Positions 4,274 through 19,803 of a stretch of 64,000 bases of DNA are shown one piece after another. Within the stretch, counting starts at the first letter, position 1; each line of letters begins with the position of its first letter. The stretch spans positions 7,909,501-7,973,500 of the forward strand of contig NZ_CP112880.1 of NCBI RefSeq assembly GCF_028747205.1, read 5' to 3'. A program made the position numbers and the translations under genes. The notes under the pieces were generated by a model, which made no database searches, was not told the DNA's origin, and worked only from the letters and a program-made list of their open reading frames with translations. The stretch comes from Streptomyces sp. CA-278952 (GTDB taxonomy: Bacteria > Actinomycetota > Actinomycetes > Streptomycetales > Streptomycetaceae).

Positions 4274-5092
4274 CTACCAGATGGCGCCGACCCACTCCGG
4301 ATGGTCTATGAACGGGTTCCGGTTGTGCTGGAACTGGTCGAATATGACGTCGTTGCGGCGCTTTTCGAAGGTGTCCGGCGGGTCTTCCCGGCTCCACTGC
4401 TTCAGGACGGACAGCTTGCCCATCTTCGGCGCGGACCCGTTGTTCACCTGGTCGTTGGGTTCGAGATCGGCGAAGGAGTCGTTGCCCTCGTAGCGCACCG
4501 CCATGTAGAGGATCATGCGCGCGACGTCGCCCTTGACCTCGTCGCGCGGCTCGAAGGAGTCGCCGTCGGTGAAGTTGCCCGGCGCGTCGCCCAGTTCGCT
4601 CCCGCCGTTGTCGAAGTCCTTGTTCCCGCGCGTGGAGTTGACCCTGACGTCGGTGGGCCGCAGATGATGGACGTCGGTGCCCGGGCCCGTCGCGGTGCCG
4701 AAGTCACCGTGCGACTTGGCCCAGACATGCTCCCGGTTCCACTGTCCCGAGTTGCCGCCGTTGTCGTTCTTGGACTGGGAGCGCCCGGTGTACAGCAGGA
4801 CGACGTTGGAGGAGTCGGCGGGATCCTCGTCGGTGGCCCTGAAGGCGTTCCACACCTGGCTGTAGGAGAGCTTGGTCTGGTCGCTGATGATCGTGTGCAG
4901 GGCGGACTTCAGCTCGGCTCCGGTCTTGCCGAGCGCGTCCTGGTAGTAGGTGTCGTCGAGGGCCGCCGCAGTCGCGGTGTGACGGCCGGGCGAGCCGTCC
5001 GACGGGGCCGCGGCGGCGGTGCCGGCGAGCACGGTGACGGCCGCCACCGCGGCGAGCAGTGGACGCGCGTAGAACGAGTGACGACGGGACAT
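4274..5092 (-). CDS. Secreted endonuclease I (EndA/NucM type)
   Basis: 272 aa from the ATG at 5092; the frame stays open to 5200, but the residues before MSRRHSF are arginine/proline-rich and unlike a signal peptide. Residues 1-29 form a Sec signal (LLAAVAAVTVLAGTAAAA). The mature protein carries the Endonuclease_1 His-Me-finger motifs: NREHVWAKS (catalytic His near 122) and DVHHLRP (His 142-143), with downstream Asn-rich loops. It should be an extracellular non-specific nuclease that needs Mg2+ or Ca2+. Usual family length. A TTGACC hexamer on the minus strand near 5236-5241 may be part of its promoter. Confidence 0.88.
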   Translation of the reverse strand: MSRRHSFYARPLLAAVAAVTVLAGTAAAAPSDGSPGRHTATAAALDDTYYQDALGKTGAELKSALHTIISDQTKLSYSQVWNAFRATDEDPADSSNVVLLYTGRSQSKNDNGGNSGQWNREHVWAKSHGDFGTATGPGTDVHHLRPTDVRVNSTRGNKDFDNGGSELGDAPGNFTDGDSFEPRDEVKGDVARMILYMAVRYEGNDSFADLEPNDQVNNGSAPKMGKLSVLKQWSREDPPDTFEKRRNDVIFDQFQHNRNPFIDHPEWVGAIW

Positions 5093-5274
5093 GTGGGGGT
5101 GTCCTCTCCGGAACGCGGGCGCCGCGACGAGGACCGCGGGTGGGGGTGCCCGCGCGACGGCCGTGCGGTAGGTGGTCAGGCGGGAGCCTTCCACACGCAC
5201 CGTGCCCCACGTGTGAACACTGTGTACCTATCATGTGCAGGTCAAGAATCGGCCCGCCGGAAGCCGTCGAAGCG

Positions 5275-5315
5275 CCGTACGCCCCCGGTGGCCCAGGGCC
5301 ACCGGGGGCGTACGG
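5275..5315. terminator. Strong hairpin, probable terminator
   Basis: A perfect 20-bp inverted repeat (arms 5275-5294 and 5296-5315, one base between) lies 46 bp beyond the stop of the lysozyme-like gene at 5361. No U-tract follows, as is usual in Streptomyces. It separates two minus-strand genes and overlaps no coding region. Confidence 0.75.
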
Positions 5316-5360
5316 GATGCGCGGGGCGTGCGGGGTGTCCGCCCTCCCCGGCCGCTGCCG

Positions 5361-5921
5361 CTACCGGCCGGCCGCCCAGTCGCGCAGGGCGCGGGCCGAG
5401 CCGAAGTCGGCCACGTTCCGGTCGAGGGGGTCGTCGGTGTACTGGTGAATGCGCCAGTCCGCCTCGATGCGGGGCTTGCCCGCGGTGCCGTAGTCGGCGA
5501 TCCACAGCCCGTCGCCCGCGTAGCCGGTGGTGTCGTGGTTGAGCCAGAAGGAGCGGTTGCAGTACAACAGGACCCGGTGGCCGGGCCGTTCCCGCTTCAC
5601 CGCGCGGATGAACCGGTCCTTGTCCGCATTGCTCGCCCGCGTCCCGCCGCCGGTCTGTTCCCAGTCGACCGCGAGCAGATCGCCCGCCTTCTCCGGGGTC
5701 TTGCTCAGGAAGTACGCCGCCTGGTCCGCCACGTCCCCCGGCCAGAGGAAGTGGTAGAAGCCGACGACGCACTCGGCGTCCCTGGCCCGCTTCACCTGCG
5801 CGTCCAGACGCGGATTGACATAGGAGCGGCCTTCGGTGGACTTGATGATGACGAAGTCGAGTCCGTCCGTGTCGTAGGAGGGCTGATAGGCGCTGACGTC
5901 GACACCGTGGAGCATGGGCAC
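5361..5921 (-). CDS. GH25-like lysozyme (muramidase) domain protein
   Basis: 186 aa, essentially one glycoside hydrolase family 25 barrel: GVDVSAYQP at the N-terminus, DFVIIKSTEG, VGFYHFLWPGD, LLAVDWEQTG (the DxE catalytic pair) and VLLYCNRSF, WIADY and YTDDP strands. Members cut the MurNAc-GlcNAc bond of peptidoglycan. There is no signal peptide, which is common for Streptomyces GH25 proteins of this size; export or an intracellular role is unclear. A strong hairpin follows its 3' end. Confidence 0.78.
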   Translation of the reverse strand: MPMLHGVDVSAYQPSYDTDGLDFVIIKSTEGRSYVNPRLDAQVKRARDAECVVGFYHFLWPGDVADQAAYFLSKTPEKAGDLLAVDWEQTGGGTRASNADKDRFIRAVKRERPGHRVLLYCNRSFWLNHDTTGYAGDGLWIADYGTAGKPRIEADWRIHQYTDDPLDRNVADFGSARALRDWAAGR

Positions 5922-6413: not shown

Positions 6414-7568
6414 ATGAACCGTTTGACGACCTCACAGGGCGCTTTCGAGCTCGCCCGCTTCCCCGAGCACCCGCGCGACCCCTTCCGTGCGTGGGACGCC
6501 GCCGACGAATACCTGCTCCGGCAGCTGACGGACCCCGAGACGGGCCCGGTCGACCTCTCGGGGACGGTCGCGGTCGTGGGGGACCGGTGGGGGGCGCTCG
6601 CCACCGCGCTGGCCGCACACCGGCCGGTCCAGATCAGCGACTCCTACCTGGCCCGGCGCGCGACCCTCGCCAACCTCGCCAGGAACGGCGTCGACCAGGA
6701 CGCGGTCCGGCTGCTCTCCTCGCGCGACACCCCGCCGGACCGGATCGACGTCCTGATCGTCCGGGTGCCCAAGTCCCTGGCGTTCCTGGAGGACCAGCTC
6801 CACCGGATCGCCCCCTCCGTCCACTCCGGCACCGTGATCATCGGCACCGGCATGGTCAAGGAGATCCACACCTCCACGCTCAAGCTCTTCGAGCGGATCA
6901 TCGGCCCGACCCGCACCTCCCTCGCGGTGCGCAAGGCACGGCTCATCTTCTGCACCCCGGACCCCGCTCTGCCGCGTACGCCGAGCCCGTGGCCGTACCG
7001 CTACGAGCTGCCCGCCGACGTGGGCCCGGTCGCGGGCCTGACCGCCGTCAACCACGCGGGGATCTTCTGCGCGGAGCGCCTCGACATCGGGACCCGCTTC
7101 TTCCTGAAGCACCTGCCCACCCGGTCCGGGGCGGTCCGGGTCGCCGACCTGGGCTGCGGCAACGGGGTCCTCGGGCTCTCCGCCGCCATCGCCAACCCCG
7201 ACGCGCACCTCACCTTCGTCGACGAGTCCTACGGGGCGGTCGCCTCCGCCGAGGAGACCTACCGGGCCGGTGCGCCCGACGGTGCGAAGGCCGACTTCCT
7301 GGTCGGCGACGGTCTCGGCGACCTCGACCCGGGCAGCGTGGACCTGGTGCTGAACAACCCGCCCTTCCACTCGCACACGGCGACCACCGACGCGACGGCC
7401 CGCACGATGTTCGCCGGGGCGCGGACCGCCCTGCGCCAGGGCGGCGAGCTCTGGGTCGTGGGCAACCGGCACCTCTCGTACCACACCCACCTGCGCCGGA
7501 TCTTCGGTAACTGCACCACGGTCGCCGGCGACCCGAAATTCGTGGTGCTGCGCGCAGTCAAGCGCTGA
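6414..7568 (+). CDS. RlmG/RsmC-family SAM-dependent methyltransferase
   Basis: 384 aa. The N-terminal half is a degenerate Rossmann domain (TVAVVGDRWGAL) and the C-terminal half is the active class I methyltransferase domain with motif I VADLGCGNG (about 243-251) and the NPPFH motif (315-319) that marks N2-guanine methyltransferases. The two-domain plan and length fit RlmG (23S rRNA m2G1835) and RsmC (16S rRNA m2G1207). Single gene; ATG at 6414 has only a weak ribosome site and could be leaderless. The exact rRNA target is inferred. Confidence 0.85.
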   Translation: MNRLTTSQGAFELARFPEHPRDPFRAWDAADEYLLRQLTDPETGPVDLSGTVAVVGDRWGALATALAAHRPVQISDSYLARRATLANLARNGVDQDAVRLLSSRDTPPDRIDVLIVRVPKSLAFLEDQLHRIAPSVHSGTVIIGTGMVKEIHTSTLKLFERIIGPTRTSLAVRKARLIFCTPDPALPRTPSPWPYRYELPADVGPVAGLTAVNHAGIFCAERLDIGTRFFLKHLPTRSGAVRVADLGCGNGVLGLSAAIANPDAHLTFVDESYGAVASAEETYRAGAPDGAKADFLVGDGLGDLDPGSVDLVLNNPPFHSHTATTDATARTMFAGARTALRQGGELWVVGNRHLSYHTHLRRIFGNCTTVAGDPKFVVLRAVKR

Positions 7569-7682
7569 CCGCTGGGCCTTTCGTCCGCCGGACGCCCGCC
7601 GGCCCTTCCGGATTCTTGCAACACGTTCTACTGTGTGCGCCGCCGCACACGGACGACGCCGAAGCGAGACTCTGGAGGGGCC

Positions 7683-8861
7683 GTGCACCTCGAATACACG
7701 CCTGAGCAGCAGCGGCTGCGTACCGAACTGCGCAGCTACTTCGCGACCCTGGTGCCCGACAACGCCTACGCCCGCTACGCGGAGCCCGCCGCCCAGAAGC
7801 GCTTCTACCGCGACACGGTCCGCAGGCTCGGCGCCGACGGCTGGCTGGGGGTCGGCTGGCCGAAGGAGTACGGCGGCCGGGGACTGACCCCGATGGAACA
7901 GTTCATCTTCTTCGACGAGGCCGCCCAGGCCGGCGTACCGCTGCCGCTGATGGCCCTGAACACCGTCGGCCCCACGATCATGCGGTTCGGCACCGACGAG
8001 CAGAAGGCCCACTTCCTGCCCGGCATCCTGGCCGGGGAGATCGACTTCGCGATCGGCTACAGCGAACCGGACGCCGGCACCGACCTCGCCGCTCTCAAGA
8101 CCCGCGCCGTCCGCGACGGGGACGAGTACGTCGTCGACGGACAGAAGATCTGGACCACCAACGGCGACACCGCCGACTGGGTCTGGCTCGCCGTGCGCAC
8201 CGACCCCGACGCGCCGGCCCACCAGGGCATCACCATGCTCCTCGTCCCCACCAGCGACCCGGGCTACTCCTGCACCGTGATCAACACCCTCGCCTCGCAC
8301 GACACGACCGCGAGCTACTACGAGAACATCCGGGTGCCGGTCTCCCGCCGCGTCGGCGAGGAGAACGAGGGCTGGCGGCTCATCACCAACCAGCTCAACC
8401 ACGAACGCGTCACCCTCGCCGCCCACGGCACGATGGCGGTCCGCGCGCTGCACAACGTCCAGCGCTGGGCCGCCGACACCAAGCTCGCCGACGGCCGCCG
8501 GATCATCGACCTCGGCTGGGTCCGCGCCCTGCTCGCCCGCACCCACACCCGCCTCGACGCGATGAAACTGCTCAACTGGCAGATGGTCGCGGCCCTCCAG
8601 AACGGCACCCTCACCCCCCAGGACGCCTCGGCGGTCAAGGTCTACGGCTCCGAGGCCCGCCGGGACGCCTACGCCTGGCTGATGGAGATCGTCGGCTCCG
8701 CGGGCGCGCTGAAGGAGGGCTCGGCCGGCGCGGTGCTCCACGGCGAACTGGAACGCGGCTACCGATCAGCCGTGATCTTCACCTTCGGCGGCGGCAACAA
8801 CGAGATCCAGCGGGAGATCATCTCGTGGATCGGGCTGGGGATGCCGCGCGTGCGGCGGTGA
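7683..8861 (+). CDS. Acyl-CoA dehydrogenase
   Basis: 392 aa from a GTG at 7683, chosen because GGAGGGGCC stands directly upstream and the protein then begins at the usual N-terminal helix (LEYTPEQQRLRTELRSYF). It shows the FAD/acyl-CoA dehydrogenase blocks: IGYSEPDAGTDLAAL, QKIWTTN, a central beta domain, and the C-terminal helical bundle ending FGGGNNEIQREIISWIGLGMPR. The residues fit the long-chain or sterol-side-chain class; substrate unknown. Monocistronic, convergent with the next gene. Confidence 0.9.
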   Translation: MHLEYTPEQQRLRTELRSYFATLVPDNAYARYAEPAAQKRFYRDTVRRLGADGWLGVGWPKEYGGRGLTPMEQFIFFDEAAQAGVPLPLMALNTVGPTIMRFGTDEQKAHFLPGILAGEIDFAIGYSEPDAGTDLAALKTRAVRDGDEYVVDGQKIWTTNGDTADWVWLAVRTDPDAPAHQGITMLLVPTSDPGYSCTVINTLASHDTTASYYENIRVPVSRRVGEENEGWRLITNQLNHERVTLAAHGTMAVRALHNVQRWAADTKLADGRRIIDLGWVRALLARTHTRLDAMKLLNWQMVAALQNGTLTPQDASAVKVYGSEARRDAYAWLMEIVGSAGALKEGSAGAVLHGELERGYRSAVIFTFGGGNNEIQREIISWIGLGMPRVRR

Positions 8862-8918: not shown

Positions 8919-9689
8919 TCAGACGGGCGGCATCAGATCGCTCTCGCTGACGGTGTACGTCAGCGGGGGGTAGCTGAAGTCCGTTTCCCTGTTCTCGCGG
9001 CGTCGCAGCCGGTAGAACTCGCTCCTCTGCTCCTCGTCGGCCGAGGTGAGGCGAGCACCCCGCGAGAGGTGTGCCTGCCCGTTGCGATACCGGACGAAGG
9101 TCTTCGACGTACGGAAGGTCACGCCCAGCCACAGGTTGTCCGCTGTCCGGGAAGGATCCTCCAGCACGATTCTGTGCCTGAGCCGCCTGTTCGCGTCGAC
9201 GGAGAACGCGACGACACCGTTGTGGGTCAGGGGGACCTCGAACCTCTCGTCACCGGACTCCTTCGATTCGAAGATCAGCTTCCTCGGCGGGCCCGCTTCG
9301 GGAAACCGATAGCAGGAGAGGACGGCGATGAACGACTCGTCGGCCAGATCGAGTGCCTGGTCGGAGTGGCTGCCCATTCTCGCGTAGGCGTTCGTGTAGC
9401 TCTCGATGAGGGCGTTGTTGAAGCCGACCGGCAGCGCCGCACGTTCCTTGACGCGTCGCGCCAGCCGTTCGTGCACGGCCCGGAAGCGTTGCGCGGGGCT
9501 GCTGTACCGCGTGGTCGTGCGGACGAGCGGTACGCCGTCCGCCTCGTCCGTCCCGGTGAGCACGGCGCCTCGCCGCCCCTTGCCCAGCTCTTCCAGCTGC
9601 GCCGACGCGGACAGCTCCGAGAAGAGATCTCCCTCGGTCGGCACGGCGCACACGAGGATCTCATCCGAAAACCTAGATCCTGGGGGCAA
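8919..9689 (-). CDS. AlkB-like 2-oxoglutarate/Fe(II) dioxygenase (second gene of pair)
   Basis: 256 aa, soluble, no signal. It has the arrangement of AlkB-superfamily oxygenases: NAYARMGSHSD, where H108-x-D110 would bind iron after an N-x-Y segment, the FIAVLSCYR strand, a distal His in RLRHRIV (H172), and the terminal strand GVTFRTSKTF with R193 as candidate 2-oxoglutarate-binding Arg. The upstream Arg of the AlkB R-x5-R pattern is Trp here (W187). Its start overlaps the upstream gene by 17 nt, so the two proteins are translationally coupled. Family members repair or modify nucleic acids, but some act on proteins or metabolites; the substrate is unknown. Confidence 0.6.
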   Translation of the reverse strand: MPPGSRFSDEILVCAVPTEGDLFSELSASAQLEELGKGRRGAVLTGTDEADGVPLVRTTTRYSSPAQRFRAVHERLARRVKERAALPVGFNNALIESYTNAYARMGSHSDQALDLADESFIAVLSCYRFPEAGPPRKLIFESKESGDERFEVPLTHNGVVAFSVDANRRLRHRIVLEDPSRTADNLWLGVTFRTSKTFVRYRNGQAHLSRGARLTSADEEQRSEFYRLRRRENRETDFSYPPLTYTVSESDLMPPV

Positions 9690-10902
9690 CGTAATCTCCC
9701 GTGTTCATGCTGAAAAGGAATCGGTCGCCGTAGTCGATGAAGGACGAGGTCCTGTTCTCCTCGGCGTACAGCTTGCGCAGATCGTCCAGCCCGGCCGGTG
9801 TGGGCGGTTGCATCCTCACCAGGTCCCCGGCCACTTCGAGGAACGTGTGGCCGTCTCTGTGCACGGCTTCGGTGCTCGAACAGCGCACCACGTACCCCAG
9901 GCGGGTCGGGAGCAACTCGGCGTCCAGCGCCGAGGGCCGGATCTCGTGCGTGTACAGGCGGTTGGTGGACAGCGGCATGAAGAACACGGAGCCGGGATAG
10001 AGGGTCACGCCGAACTGCGAGGGGAGCGGGGTCCCGTCGCGTTCTTCGGCCGTCTCCTTGAGACGGAAGCGGAGTCTGGTCAGCCCGCTGGCGCCTTTCA
10101 CGCCGTAGTCGAAGGCGTCATCGGTGAGGGGGCGCAGGCTGTCGAGCCGGTCGTAGAAAGTGCAGAAGGCCATGATGCCGTTGACGGGCATGTCCTTGGT
10201 CTTGTCGGCATGGGCCGAGATCTTGGCCTTGGATTGCTTGCGTTCCGTCGTGGCAGGGGTGTTGTGGTAGATCTGGGCGAGGACGTGATTCAGCGGAGCC
10301 TGGTGCCGGAAGACGGTGGCCGCCTCGCGGTTCAGCGCCTCGACGATGAGCGTGTCGGTCGGGCGAAAGCCCTCCGTCGGCCCCGAGAGGTTCGTGGAGC
10401 ACCGGAGCAGGCGGAAACGCAGTTCGTCGCCGTTCCGTGTGACGGGCGTCAGATAGATTCCGCTGCGATGCGCTGTGCCGGGCTTGGTGGACTCCGTCAG
10501 GGACTGGAACGCGTGCTCCCCGCGGATCCCTTCGAAATGACCGGCGTCGAGTCCGAAGAAGCGGCGGTAGTACACGCCGACTCCGTGTACGCGGAGGGGG
10601 ACGCGGCCGATGTCGATGAGGGGCCACCGTTCGTCGATGTCCTCGCGGTACCCGTGCGACAGCTCCCGGACGACGAACACCCGGGCGGCGGGGTGCAGTC
10701 GGCGGCCGCTGAACACGGAGATGTCACCGCACAGGTAGACGGTCCTTTCGGTGAGTTCGGGCGCACCGGAGGCGAGATCCTCGGGCGTGATGACGGAACC
10801 GAAGAAGCTCCTGACCGTGTCGTCGCCGTGCAGCACCGAAGGTGCGACCAGGATGTTGCTCGCGTCCTCGATGTGGGCTTCTGTCAGCTCTGTTGTGTGC
10901 AT
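9673..10902 (-). CDS. AlkB-like 2-oxoglutarate/Fe(II) dioxygenase (first gene of pair)
   Basis: 409 aa, soluble. Residues 1-190 are an N-terminal region I do not recognise. From about 200 comes an AlkB-type double-stranded beta-helix: APLNHVLAQIYH, then KISAHADKTKDMP with H231-x-D233, the strand GIMAFCTFY, the distal H319 in RLYTHEI, and R334-LGYVV-R340, which matches the R-x5-R 2-oxoglutarate motif of AlkB. All cofactor residues are present, so it should be active. Codon use is somewhat less GC-biased at the 5' end (ACA, GAA, CCT, GGT), suggesting acquisition. The ATG at 10902 has only a weak ribosome site. Confidence 0.62.
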   Translation of the reverse strand: MHTTELTEAHIEDASNILVAPSVLHGDDTVRSFFGSVITPEDLASGAPELTERTVYLCGDISVFSGRRLHPAARVFVVRELSHGYREDIDERWPLIDIGRVPLRVHGVGVYYRRFFGLDAGHFEGIRGEHAFQSLTESTKPGTAHRSGIYLTPVTRNGDELRFRLLRCSTNLSGPTEGFRPTDTLIVEALNREAATVFRHQAPLNHVLAQIYHNTPATTERKQSKAKISAHADKTKDMPVNGIMAFCTFYDRLDSLRPLTDDAFDYGVKGASGLTRLRFRLKETAEERDGTPLPSQFGVTLYPGSVFFMPLSTNRLYTHEIRPSALDAELLPTRLGYVVRCSSTEAVHRDGHTFLEVAGDLVRMQPPTPAGLDDLRKLYAEENRTSSFIDYGDRFLFSMNTGDYVAPRI

Positions 10903-11126
10903 GAACCGGTACCTGTTCTCTTCGCGGGACTCGATGGTCTGCTCGAAGCGGGGGAGATGGCAACGGTCCGCCTCCGGCGAAGGCCCGATCGTCTCAGGAG
11001 AAGAGCGTGCGCGAGCCCATGACGCCCGGCTCCGTGCCCAGGGTTCGCGGTCCCGGCCGGGGGAAGGGATCCGGGGCGCGCGTCGCCCCGCGCGCCCGAT
11101 CGTCCACCACCCGGGAGGGACCCCGT

Positions 11127-16666: not shown

Positions 16667-17569
16667 ATGAACGACGCCTCTCCACCGCGACCCGACCCCG
16701 GCCTCTTCGGGCCCCGGTCGGTCACCTGGCAGCTGCACGGCGACCCGATGATGTGGATCGCGGGCATCCGCGCCCTCTACCTCCAGGCACTCCACCCACG
16801 CGCCGTGCGCGGAGTCACCCAGAACTCCGACTTCCGCCGGGACGCCTGGGGCCGGCTCATGCGTACGGCGTCCTTCGTCGGCACCATCACCTACGGCACG
16901 ACCGACGCCGCCGAACAGGCGGGCGCCCGGGTCCGCCGGATCCACCGCGCCATCGAGGCCACCGACCCGGACACCGGGGAGACGTACGGCGTCGACGAAC
17001 CGGAACTGCTGCTCTGGGTGCACTGCGCCGAGGCCGACTCCTACCTCCAGGTCCAGCGCCGCTCCGGCTACCCCCTCACCGACGCCCAGGCCGACCGGTA
17101 CATCGACGAGCACCGCACCGGCGCCCGCCTCGTCGGCCTCGACCCGGACCGGGTGCCCGCCACCACCGCCGAACTCGCCGCCTACTTCGACCGCGTACGC
17201 CCCGAACTCGCCGCCGGAGCCGAGGCCGCCGATGTCGACGCCTTCCTCCGTAGCCCGCCCGTGCGCCCCTGGCTCGTCCCGGCGCGCGCCCTGGTGTGGC
17301 GGCGGGTGGCGGCGCTCGCCTACCAGTCCCTGCCCCCGTACGCCCACGCGCTGTACGGGCGGCCTGCCCCGCCGCCGGCCACCGTCGACCGGCGGTTGCG
17401 CGCCACCGGCGCCGTCCTGCGCGCGGTCCCGGACCGGGTGCGCTGGCAGCTGCCGCCCGGCCACATTCTCGGGGCGATGGCACGGCTGGGCCCCGGCAGC
17501 CGCCCCGCCGCGTACAGACTCCGCGGACCGGCCGCCATACTGGACGGGCCGGGGAGGGCACAGCGCTAG
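16667..17569 (+). CDS. MpaB/latex-clearing-like oxygenase (DUF2236)
   Basis: 300 aa, soluble and helical. It matches the DUF2236 family (MpaB, latex-clearing protein): MMWIAGIRALYLQALHPRAVRGV near the N-terminus with the conserved His, TASFVGTITYG, LLWVHCAEADSY with the second His, and a C-terminal helical segment. Family members use a b-type haem to cleave isoprenoid or polyketide chains, but the Streptomyces members of this size have no assigned substrate. ATG at 16667; 32 nt separate its stop from the kinase gene. Confidence 0.85.
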   Translation: MNDASPPRPDPGLFGPRSVTWQLHGDPMMWIAGIRALYLQALHPRAVRGVTQNSDFRRDAWGRLMRTASFVGTITYGTTDAAEQAGARVRRIHRAIEATDPDTGETYGVDEPELLLWVHCAEADSYLQVQRRSGYPLTDAQADRYIDEHRTGARLVGLDPDRVPATTAELAAYFDRVRPELAAGAEAADVDAFLRSPPVRPWLVPARALVWRRVAALAYQSLPPYAHALYGRPAPPPATVDRRLRATGAVLRAVPDRVRWQLPPGHILGAMARLGPGSRPAAYRLRGPAAILDGPGRAQR

Positions 17570-17601
17570 CAGCGGGGAACAACGGGGGCGGGAAGCGGCA
17601 G

Positions 17602-19803
17602 ATGGCGGACACCAGGCTGATCCAGAGCCGGTACCGACTGCTCGAACTGATCGGGCGCGGCGGCATGGGCGAGGTGTGGCGCGCCCGCGACGAGTCGCTG
17701 GGCCGTCAGGTCGCCGTCAAGTGCCTCAAACCCATGGGCCCCCAGCACGACCGGGCGTTCACCCGCGTCCTGCGTGAACGCTTCCGGCGCGAGGCCCGGG
17801 TGGCCGCCTCCCTCCAGCACCGGGGCGTCACCGTCGTGCACGACTTCGGCGAGCACGAGGGCGTGCTCTACCTCGTCATGGAGCTGCTCGACGGGCACAA
17901 CCTGAGCCAGCTCCTTCAGGAGAACCAGCAGCACCCGCTGCCCGTCGACCACGTCGTCGACATCGCGGAACAGGTCGCCGACGCCCTCGGCTACACCCAC
18001 CGGCAGGGCATTGTCCACCGCGACCTCAAGCCCGCCAACATCATGCGCCTGACCGACGGCACGGTGAAGATCTGCGACTTCGGCATAGCGCGCCTCGGCC
18101 ACGACATCGGCATGACCTCCCGCCTCACCACCACCGGCCTCGCCATGGGCACCCCGCACTACATGTCACCCGAGCAGATCAGCGGCAAGGAGGTCGACCA
18201 CCGCAGCGACCTCTACTCGCTGGGCTGCGTCCTGTACGAGATCGCCACCGGCGTGCCGCCGTTCGATCAGGACGACGCCTGGGCCGTGCTCGTCGGTCAC
18301 CGCGACACCCCGCCGGAACCGCTGCGCACCCACCGCGCCGACTTGCCCGACTTCCTCGACCGCGTCGTTCTCGACCTGCTCGCCAAGGCCCCCGAGGAGC
18401 GGCCCGCCGACGCGGGCGACCTGCACCGCCGCATCGTCCTCGGCCGGACCGGGGAACAGCCCGCGCTCGGGCCGGCACCCCTCGCGCTGTCCGGCGCCGA
18501 GCGGCCGCCGGCCCCGCGCACCAGGGCTCTCCCCGCCTGGACCCGCTCCATGACCGCCGGACACCTGGCGACCGGCGCGACGGGCCCCGCCGCCCAACGG
18601 CCCGATCCGGCCGCCGGGCTGACGGGCCAGTGGACCACCGGCACCCCGCACTCCGCCACCGCCCCGCACGCCGGGCCGGCCGTCGCCGCACCCGCTCCCG
18701 GTCTCCTCGCCACGCTCGACGGCCGCCACGGCGCGGGCATCGACCTCGGCCGCCTGGGCCGCTGGGAGGAGGCGGGCGAGGTGCACCGGGAGGTCGCCGC
18801 CCAGCGTGGCCGCCTCCTCGGCCCCGACCACCCGGACACCCTCGCCAGCCGTTACGAACTCGGCCTCACCCTCAGCCGCACGGGCCGGGCCGAGGAAGGG
18901 CTGCGCGAGTTCGCCGGGGTCGCCGAGGGCCGCGAACGCGCCCTGGGCGCCGACCACCTGCAGACGCTCGCCGCCCGCCAGGCGACCGCCCACGCCCTGG
19001 GCCGGCTGGGCCGGCACGCCGAGGCCCACCAGGTGTACGAGGCGGTCCTCGCCGTCCGCGAACGCGTCATGGGCCCCGACCACCCCGACACCCTGCGCTG
19101 CCGCCACAACCTGGCGTTCAACCTCAGCAGGCTGGGGCGGCCCGAGGAGTCCTGGCAGCTGGCCCGTGAGGTCGCCGACGCCCGCGCCCGGCTGCTCGGC
19201 CCGACGCACCCCGACACCCTCACCACCCGCTACGAAGTGGCGTACACCCTCGGCAGGCTGGGCCGCTGGGCCGAGGCGCTGGACACCTTCCAGGACGTCG
19301 CCGGGGCCCGCGCGAGCACCCTCGGGCCCGATCACCCCGACACCTTCGCCGCCCGCTACGAGGCCGGTATCAGCCTCGGCCGGCTCGGCCGCGACGCGGA
19401 GGCCCTGGAGCTGTACCGCTCCCTGGTCGCCGACCGCACCCGGACCGCGGGCGCCGCCGACCCCGAGACGCTGCGCGCCCGCCACGGCCTCGGGGTCAAC
19501 CTGGGGCGGACCGGCCGCTGGGAGGAGGCGCTCGCAGAGGCGCGCGAGGTCTGCGCGCTCCGGGAACGCACCCTGGGACCCGATCACCCGGACACCGTGA
19601 TCAGCCGCCGGGAAGTCGCCGCCGGCCTCGGCTGGCTCGGCCGGTGGAGCGAGGCTCTGGTGGCGTACCGGGAGGTCGCCGAGGCGCGCGCCCGGGTGCT
19701 GGGCCCCGACCACCCCCAGACGCTGGCGGCCCGCGACGACGAGGCGCACTGCCTGGAGCGGCTCGGACGGTCGGCGGAGGCCACCGGACCACACCGCACC
19801 TGA
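17602..19803 (+). CDS. Ser/Thr protein kinase fused to C-terminal TPR array
   Basis: 733 aa from the ATG at 17602. Residues 11-285 form a Hanks-type kinase: GRGGMGEVW loop, catalytic K40 in VAVKCLKP, HRDLKPAN, DFG and a MSPEQ P+1 region, all intact. A Pro/Ala-rich linker follows, then about eight repeats of ~42 residues marked by LGPDHPDTL and LGRLGR, i.e. TPR_10/TPR_12 repeats that bind protein partners. There is no transmembrane segment, unlike PASTA or PknB kinases, so it is probably cytoplasmic. Translation coupling with the MpaB gene is possible. Confidence 0.92.
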   Translation: MADTRLIQSRYRLLELIGRGGMGEVWRARDESLGRQVAVKCLKPMGPQHDRAFTRVLRERFRREARVAASLQHRGVTVVHDFGEHEGVLYLVMELLDGHNLSQLLQENQQHPLPVDHVVDIAEQVADALGYTHRQGIVHRDLKPANIMRLTDGTVKICDFGIARLGHDIGMTSRLTTTGLAMGTPHYMSPEQISGKEVDHRSDLYSLGCVLYEIATGVPPFDQDDAWAVLVGHRDTPPEPLRTHRADLPDFLDRVVLDLLAKAPEERPADAGDLHRRIVLGRTGEQPALGPAPLALSGAERPPAPRTRALPAWTRSMTAGHLATGATGPAAQRPDPAAGLTGQWTTGTPHSATAPHAGPAVAAPAPGLLATLDGRHGAGIDLGRLGRWEEAGEVHREVAAQRGRLLGPDHPDTLASRYELGLTLSRTGRAEEGLREFAGVAEGRERALGADHLQTLAARQATAHALGRLGRHAEAHQVYEAVLAVRERVMGPDHPDTLRCRHNLAFNLSRLGRPEESWQLAREVADARARLLGPTHPDTLTTRYEVAYTLGRLGRWAEALDTFQDVAGARASTLGPDHPDTFAARYEAGISLGRLGRDAEALELYRSLVADRTRTAGAADPETLRARHGLGVNLGRTGRWEEALAEAREVCALRERTLGPDHPDTVISRREVAAGLGWLGRWSEALVAYREVAEARARVLGPDHPQTLAARDDEAHCLERLGRSAEATGPHRT
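18790..19770 (+). repeat. ~126-bp coding repeats (TPR units)
   Basis: The 3' part of the kinase gene is built from about eight tandem, diverged units of ~126 bp, each encoding LGPDHPDTL followed by an LGRLGR helix pair. The third, fifth and eighth units are the most alike. These are protein repeats in frame, not a satellite; unit-number changes by recombination are possible. Confidence 0.75.

Follow-up and report, generated by a model that had tools for sequence, protein, structure and literature searches.

To our knowledge, most AlkB enzymes described so far consist of a single domain and act alone. In a 64,000-nt stretch of the genome of Streptomyces sp. CA-278952 (hereafter the window, in whose positions coordinates are given unless another locus is named), two adjacent genes, A and B, encode proteins predicted to share the AlkB fold of the 2-oxoglutarate (2OG)/Fe(II) oxygenases, one with a complete and the other with an altered active site. 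The pair probably constitutes an obligate double AlkB oxygenase in which A is catalytic and B is a modified partner, perhaps acting on a nucleobase-containing substrate. Compared with AlkB proteins of the ALKBH2, ALKBH3, and FTO type, the A–B unit contains two apparently paralogous domains, has no Pfam model for A, and carries an extra N-terminal region of about 100 residues; in B, an arginine is replaced by tryptophan, and neither a base-contacting Asp/Glu nor a motif of the RxNxTxR type is kept.

A comparable layout is found in the prolyl hydroxylases OGFOD1 and Tpa1, which are described as tandem double-stranded β-helix (DSBH) proteins whose C-terminal domain lacks a metal site (PMC4396695). 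On this description, they are like A–B in having two 2OG-oxygenase folds per chain, one of which is not a normal active site, and differ from it in that B retains its metal triad. Foldseek produced matches to OGFOD1/Tpa1 only at a root-mean-square deviation of 27–30 Å, and no relation is shown. The division of labor proposed here for A and B is also like that of METTL3–METTL14 and ADAT2–ADAT3, which we take to be two-subunit enzymes composed of a catalytic subunit and a degenerate paralogue; their folds and chemistry are unrelated, and the likeness is an analogy only.

Two AlkB clusters overlap with A–B in their taxa, namely ALKBH13 (bacteria, stramenopiles, and fungi) and ALKBH14 (Rhizobiales, Actinobacteria, and one green-algal protein), as given in one section of PMC3265494. 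Compared by description only, both clusters could contain A–B-type sequences, and that section mentions no double domain. The fold and its chemistry are known. Among titles and abstract beginnings of papers in an open-licence library, no description turned up of a double AlkB that spans kingdoms and has one half constantly altered, which is not proof of novelty.

The Gene Pair and Its Active Sites

The pair lies on the minus strand about 0.29 Mb from the contig end of an 8.21 Mb, single-contig genome and consists of the following genes:

Gene A: 9673–10902, minus strand; 409 amino acids (aa), predicted AlkB-fold 2OG/Fe(II) oxygenase with the complete site H231, D233, H319, R334, and R340.
Gene B: 8919–9689, minus strand; 256 aa, AlkB-fold protein of PF13532 with the Fe triad H108/D110/H172, R193, and Trp187 at the position of A R334.

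A first-pass annotation of the window had described two adjoining minus-strand genes with a 17-nt overlap, carrying H231-x-D233, H319, and R334-x5-R340 in A and H108-x-D110, H172, and R193 in B; the genes, their overlap, and every one of these residues are found as described. A scan of 84,980 species genomes yielded 166 relatives of A, and the best 80 of these were used for locus counts. The five A sites and the five B sites, W187 included, are identical in all 80 orthologous actinobacterial loci, which argues that the motif is not a product of chance. The same pattern is retained in proteins that carry both halves in a single chain: among 99 aligned fusions, the A sites (H232, D234, H320, R335, and R341) are present in 99, the B sites H513, D515, H578, and R599 in 98, and W593 in 97. 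The earlier distinction between a complete A and an altered B is therefore borne out, and the alteration is nearly always the same.

Both A and B contain the HxD...H iron triad of the AlkB/2OG-Fe(II) superfamily. B retains the iron ligands, but Trp is constant at a position held by Arg in A and in the AlkB of the host genome (L001). This residue is the first Arg of the R-x5-R pair, which presumably contacts the C5 carboxylate of 2OG; it is present in A and replaced by Trp187 in B in 80/80 loci. The second Arg, equivalent to AlkB Arg210 and named as the distinguishing residue in PMC8508711, is present in both proteins (A R340 and B R193, each in 80/80 loci).

The DNA-repair AlkB motif is RxNxTxR, which is not kept in A (RLGYVVR) or in B (WLGVTFR), as against RLNLTLR in L001. 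AlkB Asp135, next to the HxD motif, contacts the base, according to the same source (PMC8508711). In the alignment, a base-contacting Asp/Glu after HxD is absent from both halves (A HADKTKD, B HSDQALD), while L001 has the AlkB-like stretch HQDKEE. Since neither half keeps this residue, the A–B pair should not, on its sequence, be filed as a repair AlkB.

Predicted Folds and Probable Paralogy of the Two Halves

B passes the Pfam model PF13532 (2OG-FeII_Oxy_2) with 34.4 bits against a gathering cut-off of 31.2, and A matches no Pfam or NCBIfam model. All 10 fusions scanned also pass PF13532, the best stretch being the B half. The database protein names that were seen apply "AlkB" to B only, A being the half of the unit without such a match. 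A model of the fusion, with a predicted local distance difference test score (pLDDT) of 90.7 and a predicted template modeling score (pTM) of 0.92, contains two predicted AlkB folds, and the best fold matches among solved structures are ALKBH2, ALKBH3, and FTO. The expected AlkB-type DSBH fold is accordingly recovered for both proteins, by profile or by predicted model. The A and B profiles align with each other over 201 columns (probability 93.9%, E 1.5e-7, 25% identity), and because of this alignment the two are most likely ancient paralogues.

Within A, the fusion model separates two parts:

N-terminal ~100 residues of A: 10603–10902, minus strand; predicted alternating strand/helix in the fusion model.
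AlkB-fold part of A, approximately residues 103–345: 9868–10596, minus strand; range taken from the fusion model, in which the active-site residues carry numbers one higher than in A.

The first-pass annotation had left an N-terminal region of about 190 residues unassigned. A part without a solved-structure match does exist, but it spans approximately residues 1–100, as the AlkB match begins near residue 100. For this region, Pfam gives nothing in the window protein at E up to 10 and nothing convincing in 10 fusions; it has no sequence match in the PDB and is hardly covered by the fold search, and we make no claim of a new fold for it.

Single-Chain Fusions

The search for relatives of A placed it in a 784-aa query under a length rule that admits longer proteins only and bypasses many 409-aa orthologues; 7,997 proteins were scored, 475 reached E 1e-3, and the best 120 of these 475 were considered, 118 of them new. 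At least 98 proteins of at least 600 aa contain A and B in one chain, and those among the matches listed are 57–69% identical to A. Sources of the listed fusions include Nannocystis, Polyangiales, Myxococcota, a Cyanobacteria bin, Planctomycetaceae, Pseudomonadales, Pseudonocardia, and an actinomycete, as well as MMETSP and EukProt transcripts for which the species is not given; single records in the list may be contaminants. A fungal fusion, a 579-aa gene model of Neophaeococcomyces mojaviensis (Chaetothyriales), forms the 99th alignment row. Five fusions (P0305, P0308, P0310, P0315, and P0321), at least two of them from eukaryote transcript sets, begin with an N-terminal hydrophobic stretch that suggests a membrane anchor or targeting signal.

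In a FastTree phylogeny of A regions (145 sequences before the length filter), the split forms make up one clade of 44 that contains no fusion. The midpoint root falls between the split and fused forms, which fits either fission or fusion. Because natural single-chain fusions exist, the idea that the separate A and B chains form a heteromer gains indirect support.

Distribution and Co-Occurrence

A is present in 19 of 246 Streptomyces genomes, and B is present in the same 19 at adjoining coordinates. B directly follows A in 80/80 of the loci defined above, which belong to Streptomyces, Kitasatospora, Actinomadura, Actinocorallia, Embleya, Streptacidiphilus, Catenulispora, Yinghuangia, and one unclassified actinobacterium. 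The adjacency and co-occurrence anticipated for the pair thus hold wherever actinomycetes were sampled. A plasmid collection gave three matches, all with both genes, on two Embleya linear replicons and one Nonomuraea replicon of 11.85 Mb. Prevalence is low class-wide (3/296 genomes, own genome included) and phylum-wide (2/198 genomes, namely the own genome and one weak, partial match of 26%). At least 2,596 relatives of A were found against 1,558 of B, a gap that may be explained by the length rule, under which fusions of about 660 aa can enter the count for A and not for B. Judged by its sequences, the A–B family is strongly conserved.

Translation of B within A

The start of B lies inside the last codons of A, together with a stretch resembling a ribosome-binding site:

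GGAGA ribosome-binding-like stretch (9695–9699) and TTG start of B (9687–9689): 9687–9699, minus strand; inside the last A codons.

The overlap measures 17 nt in 75 of the 80 loci and 29 nt in four; the remaining locus has no ATG, GTG, or TTG, and has CTG at this place. The B start triplet is NTG in all 80 (TTG 60, GTG 14, ATG 5, CTG 1), which forces a T-ending A codon followed by G, and T-ending codons amount to 8.1% (2,577/31,707) and T-then-G to 2.95% of A codons. At the Gly position that creates the GGAGA stretch, GGA is used in 71/80 loci; in the rest of A it makes up 13.9% of Gly codons. As the 80 loci are related, the start and GGA counts are not independent. Even so, B is most simply read as starting by itself inside A, a reading that favors joint production of two separate chains over a frameshift product or a sequencing error, and two coupled chains would be expected in actinomycetes. 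A +1 frameshift at the A/B junction, whose product would be collinear with the fusions, was considered and judged less likely: a candidate CCC codon is present in 62/81 loci (counted by eye, with 58 in the main column, four in rows with a later stop, and another codon in 19), against NTG in 80/80. Separate initiation is preferred on these counts.

A Candidate RNA Leader Upstream of A

DNA up to approximately 190 nt upstream of A is alike in many loci (a match in 63/81), whereas DNA downstream of B is alike in 16/81. In the window, this similarity covers the following stretch:

Leader DNA alike in three other loci: 10906–10978, minus strand; 85–88% identity over 73 nt in two loci and 81% over 54 nt in the third.

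A covarying hairpin lies roughly 40–135 nt before A (9878–9942 in locus L050). Across 21 hairpin sequences, pairing is possible in 96.1% of pair cells, and both sides have changed in 7 of 17 pairs; none of 500 shuffles reaches this, and slid versions form 37–58%, although both controls are favored by the relatedness of the sequences and by the derivation of the structure from them. U–G pairs are frequent (16/21 at two positions), and because of them a sense-strand RNA would fit better than the other strand. The hairpin model matches 24/80 loci, of which 21 are its training set and the new ones are L088, L121, and a weak L079; its search did not find the hairpin in the window copy. Among 101 Streptomyces genomes, the hairpin occurs in four, in every case no more than 100 nt upstream of A, the pair itself being present in nine if these are the same 101 as the fully listed set. 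Rfam, searched with the leader of one locus (L050), returned four matches, all far below gathering scores. The hairpin is probably a leader of the A–B transcript, possibly an RNA leader or attenuator. A DNA-damage promoter was also considered; simple SOS-box and RecA-NDp patterns occur in 0/82 upstream regions, which is weak evidence only.

Proposed Mechanism and Competing Explanations

In the mechanism favored here, A and B are two halves of one double AlkB-fold oxygenase, which elsewhere would be a single chain of about 660 aa and in the Streptomyces-type lineage would be made as two polypeptides whose tight translational coupling leads to one-to-one assembly. A would act as the catalytic 2OG/Fe(II) oxygenase, binding Fe and 2OG and oxidizing the substrate. 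B, an anciently diverged paralogue of A, would have kept its Fe site while its 2OG pocket is changed by Trp at the place of the first Arg, and for this reason we infer that it most likely shapes or completes the substrate site or regulates A and does not perform the same reaction. The substrate would most likely contain a nucleobase (RNA, DNA, or a nucleotide) and be common to bacteria and eukaryotes. This assignment, the weakest step of the mechanism, is tentative: the likeness to ALKBH2, ALKBH3, and FTO favors a nucleobase substrate, and the neutral charge and missing base-contact residue speak against one.

Several observations weigh against the proposed enzyme. Net charge is near neutral (A −6, B 0) and no recognizable nucleic-acid-binding domain is found in A or B, observations that do not favor a nucleic acid. 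By E. coli numbering, T235 of A and A112 of B appear to occupy the base-contact place. Modeled alone, A gives a poor structure (pLDDT 60.5), and the pTM of the fusion model can speak only indirectly for the assembly of separate A and B chains. Two A-only proteins (P0314 and P0337) lie outside the split clade, and B might bind 2OG in another way and be active.

The competing explanations are taken here in descending order of likelihood; their chances and those of the favored mechanism overlap and need not sum to one. The first, which we consider unlikely, sees the pair as an enzyme complete in itself that has been spread by gene transfer and that either serves a small secondary metabolite or modifies a common one. 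A sporadic occurrence over bacteria and eukaryotes, the neutral charge, and the lack of fixed neighbors would suit such an enzyme. No biosynthesis gene is conserved beside the pair, however, and the 57–69% identity to A in listed fusions across phyla and eukaryotes would be unusual for a tailoring enzyme; likewise, the earlier suggestion of a natural-product tailoring pair finds no conserved neighbor gene in its favor among 81 loci.

A little less likely is that both halves are active oxygenases working one after the other on a single substrate, as in two successive oxidations of a metabolite or peptide, joined for channeling. Such an arrangement would account for the retention of H/D/H and the second Arg in B (80/80 loci and 98/99 fusions) and of other B residues such as R136 and K143 (also 80/80 loci). 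It is countered by the equally constant replacement of the first Arg by Trp (80/80 loci and 97/99 fusions) and by the absence of a conserved pathway gene nearby.

An accessory alkylation repair enzyme, that is, an AlkB variant for DNA or RNA lesions beyond those served by the other AlkB proteins of the host genome, is improbable. The best solved fold matches and the patchy, transferable distribution are what such a variant might show, but the host genome has two further PF13532 places besides the pair, one with an AlkB-like HQDKEE...RLNLTLR site, neither RLGYVVR in A nor WLGVTFR in B is accompanied by a base-contacting Asp/Glu, and the damage-promoter patterns mentioned above are absent.

A defence or counter-defence device of mobile elements is very unlikely: its patchy, horizontally moved distribution and the large linear Embleya plasmids among the plasmid matches (two of three) would fit, but no sequence match to A or B was found in phage records or viral contigs, and at E up to 1 no PADLOC family matched A, B, or either of two fusions, leaving the mobile-element role raised by the first-pass annotation without a match. 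A viral or phage origin was likewise rejected, there being no sequence match and the structural matches to viral proteins looking like general AlkB-fold matches. In BFVD, two Sylvanvirus 2OG oxygenases (333 and 260 aa) rank highest among the structural matches.

Genomic Neighborhood and Possible Acquisition

Flanks of up to 10 kb were compared in 81 loci with crude, GC3-based gene calls (GC3 being the G+C content at third codon positions) that missed A in L058, L060, and L105. No neighbor besides A and B is conserved in more than 8/81 loci, the most frequent being an ABC ATPase in varying places, and the pair appears from these comparisons to be a self-contained, mobile unit.

The nearest relative by neighboring gene (G261, 98% identical in that gene) is collinear with the window in two blocks, one up to 8859 (about 95% identity) and the other from 13509 (about 92%). 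Between them, the A–B pair, an alpha/beta hydrolase gene, and an MFS gene are replaced in G261 by about 6 kb of other DNA (L152 7681–13641), marking a variable site. G261 is not among the 19 carriers; its membership of the 246-genome set is presumed. GC3 is 0.868 in A and 0.859 in B; the first 21 kb hold 18 further crude gene calls, 14 of them at 0.90–0.96 and four at 0.755–0.867. The lower GC3 noted earlier for the pair is real relative to 14 of the 18 neighboring calls, but the gap is modest, and four neighbors lie at 0.755–0.867. Acquisition had been proposed, and a recent one fits both the GC3 values and the replacement in G261.

At 6414–8861, a gene for an MTS-domain methyltransferase adjoins an acyl-CoA dehydrogenase gene, and relatives of the dehydrogenase occur near A–B in 5/81 loci. 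Elsewhere in the window, an Endonuclease I family gene lies beside a GH25 lysozyme-type gene (4274–5921, minus strand), and positions 18697–19782, within an 835-aa open reading frame (17296–19800, plus strand), are internally repetitive, with many overlapping self-like alignments of 65–68% identity to one stretch of a relative.

Implications

The A–B pair may represent a cross-kingdom family not described in the literature searched, a proposal to which we give slightly less than even chances: an obligate double AlkB with one complete and one constantly altered site (Trp for Arg, with the iron triad retained), which actinomycetes would make as a coupled heterodimer and other bacteria and some eukaryotes as a single chain, and which would spread as a self-contained one-enzyme cassette, often with its own RNA leader, and act on a chemistry that no known AlkB covers. 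The occurrence of two-gene and one-gene forms allows direct tests of the heterodimer and of the role of the altered half. A paralogous AlkB pair, one member of which bears a constant change in the presumed co-substrate pocket, has stayed together across wide evolutionary distances, either fused or in a coupled operon. Such conservation (57–69% identity to A in the listed fusions from several bacterial phyla and eukaryotes) points to a specific task involving a substrate that is widely shared, and not to generic repair.
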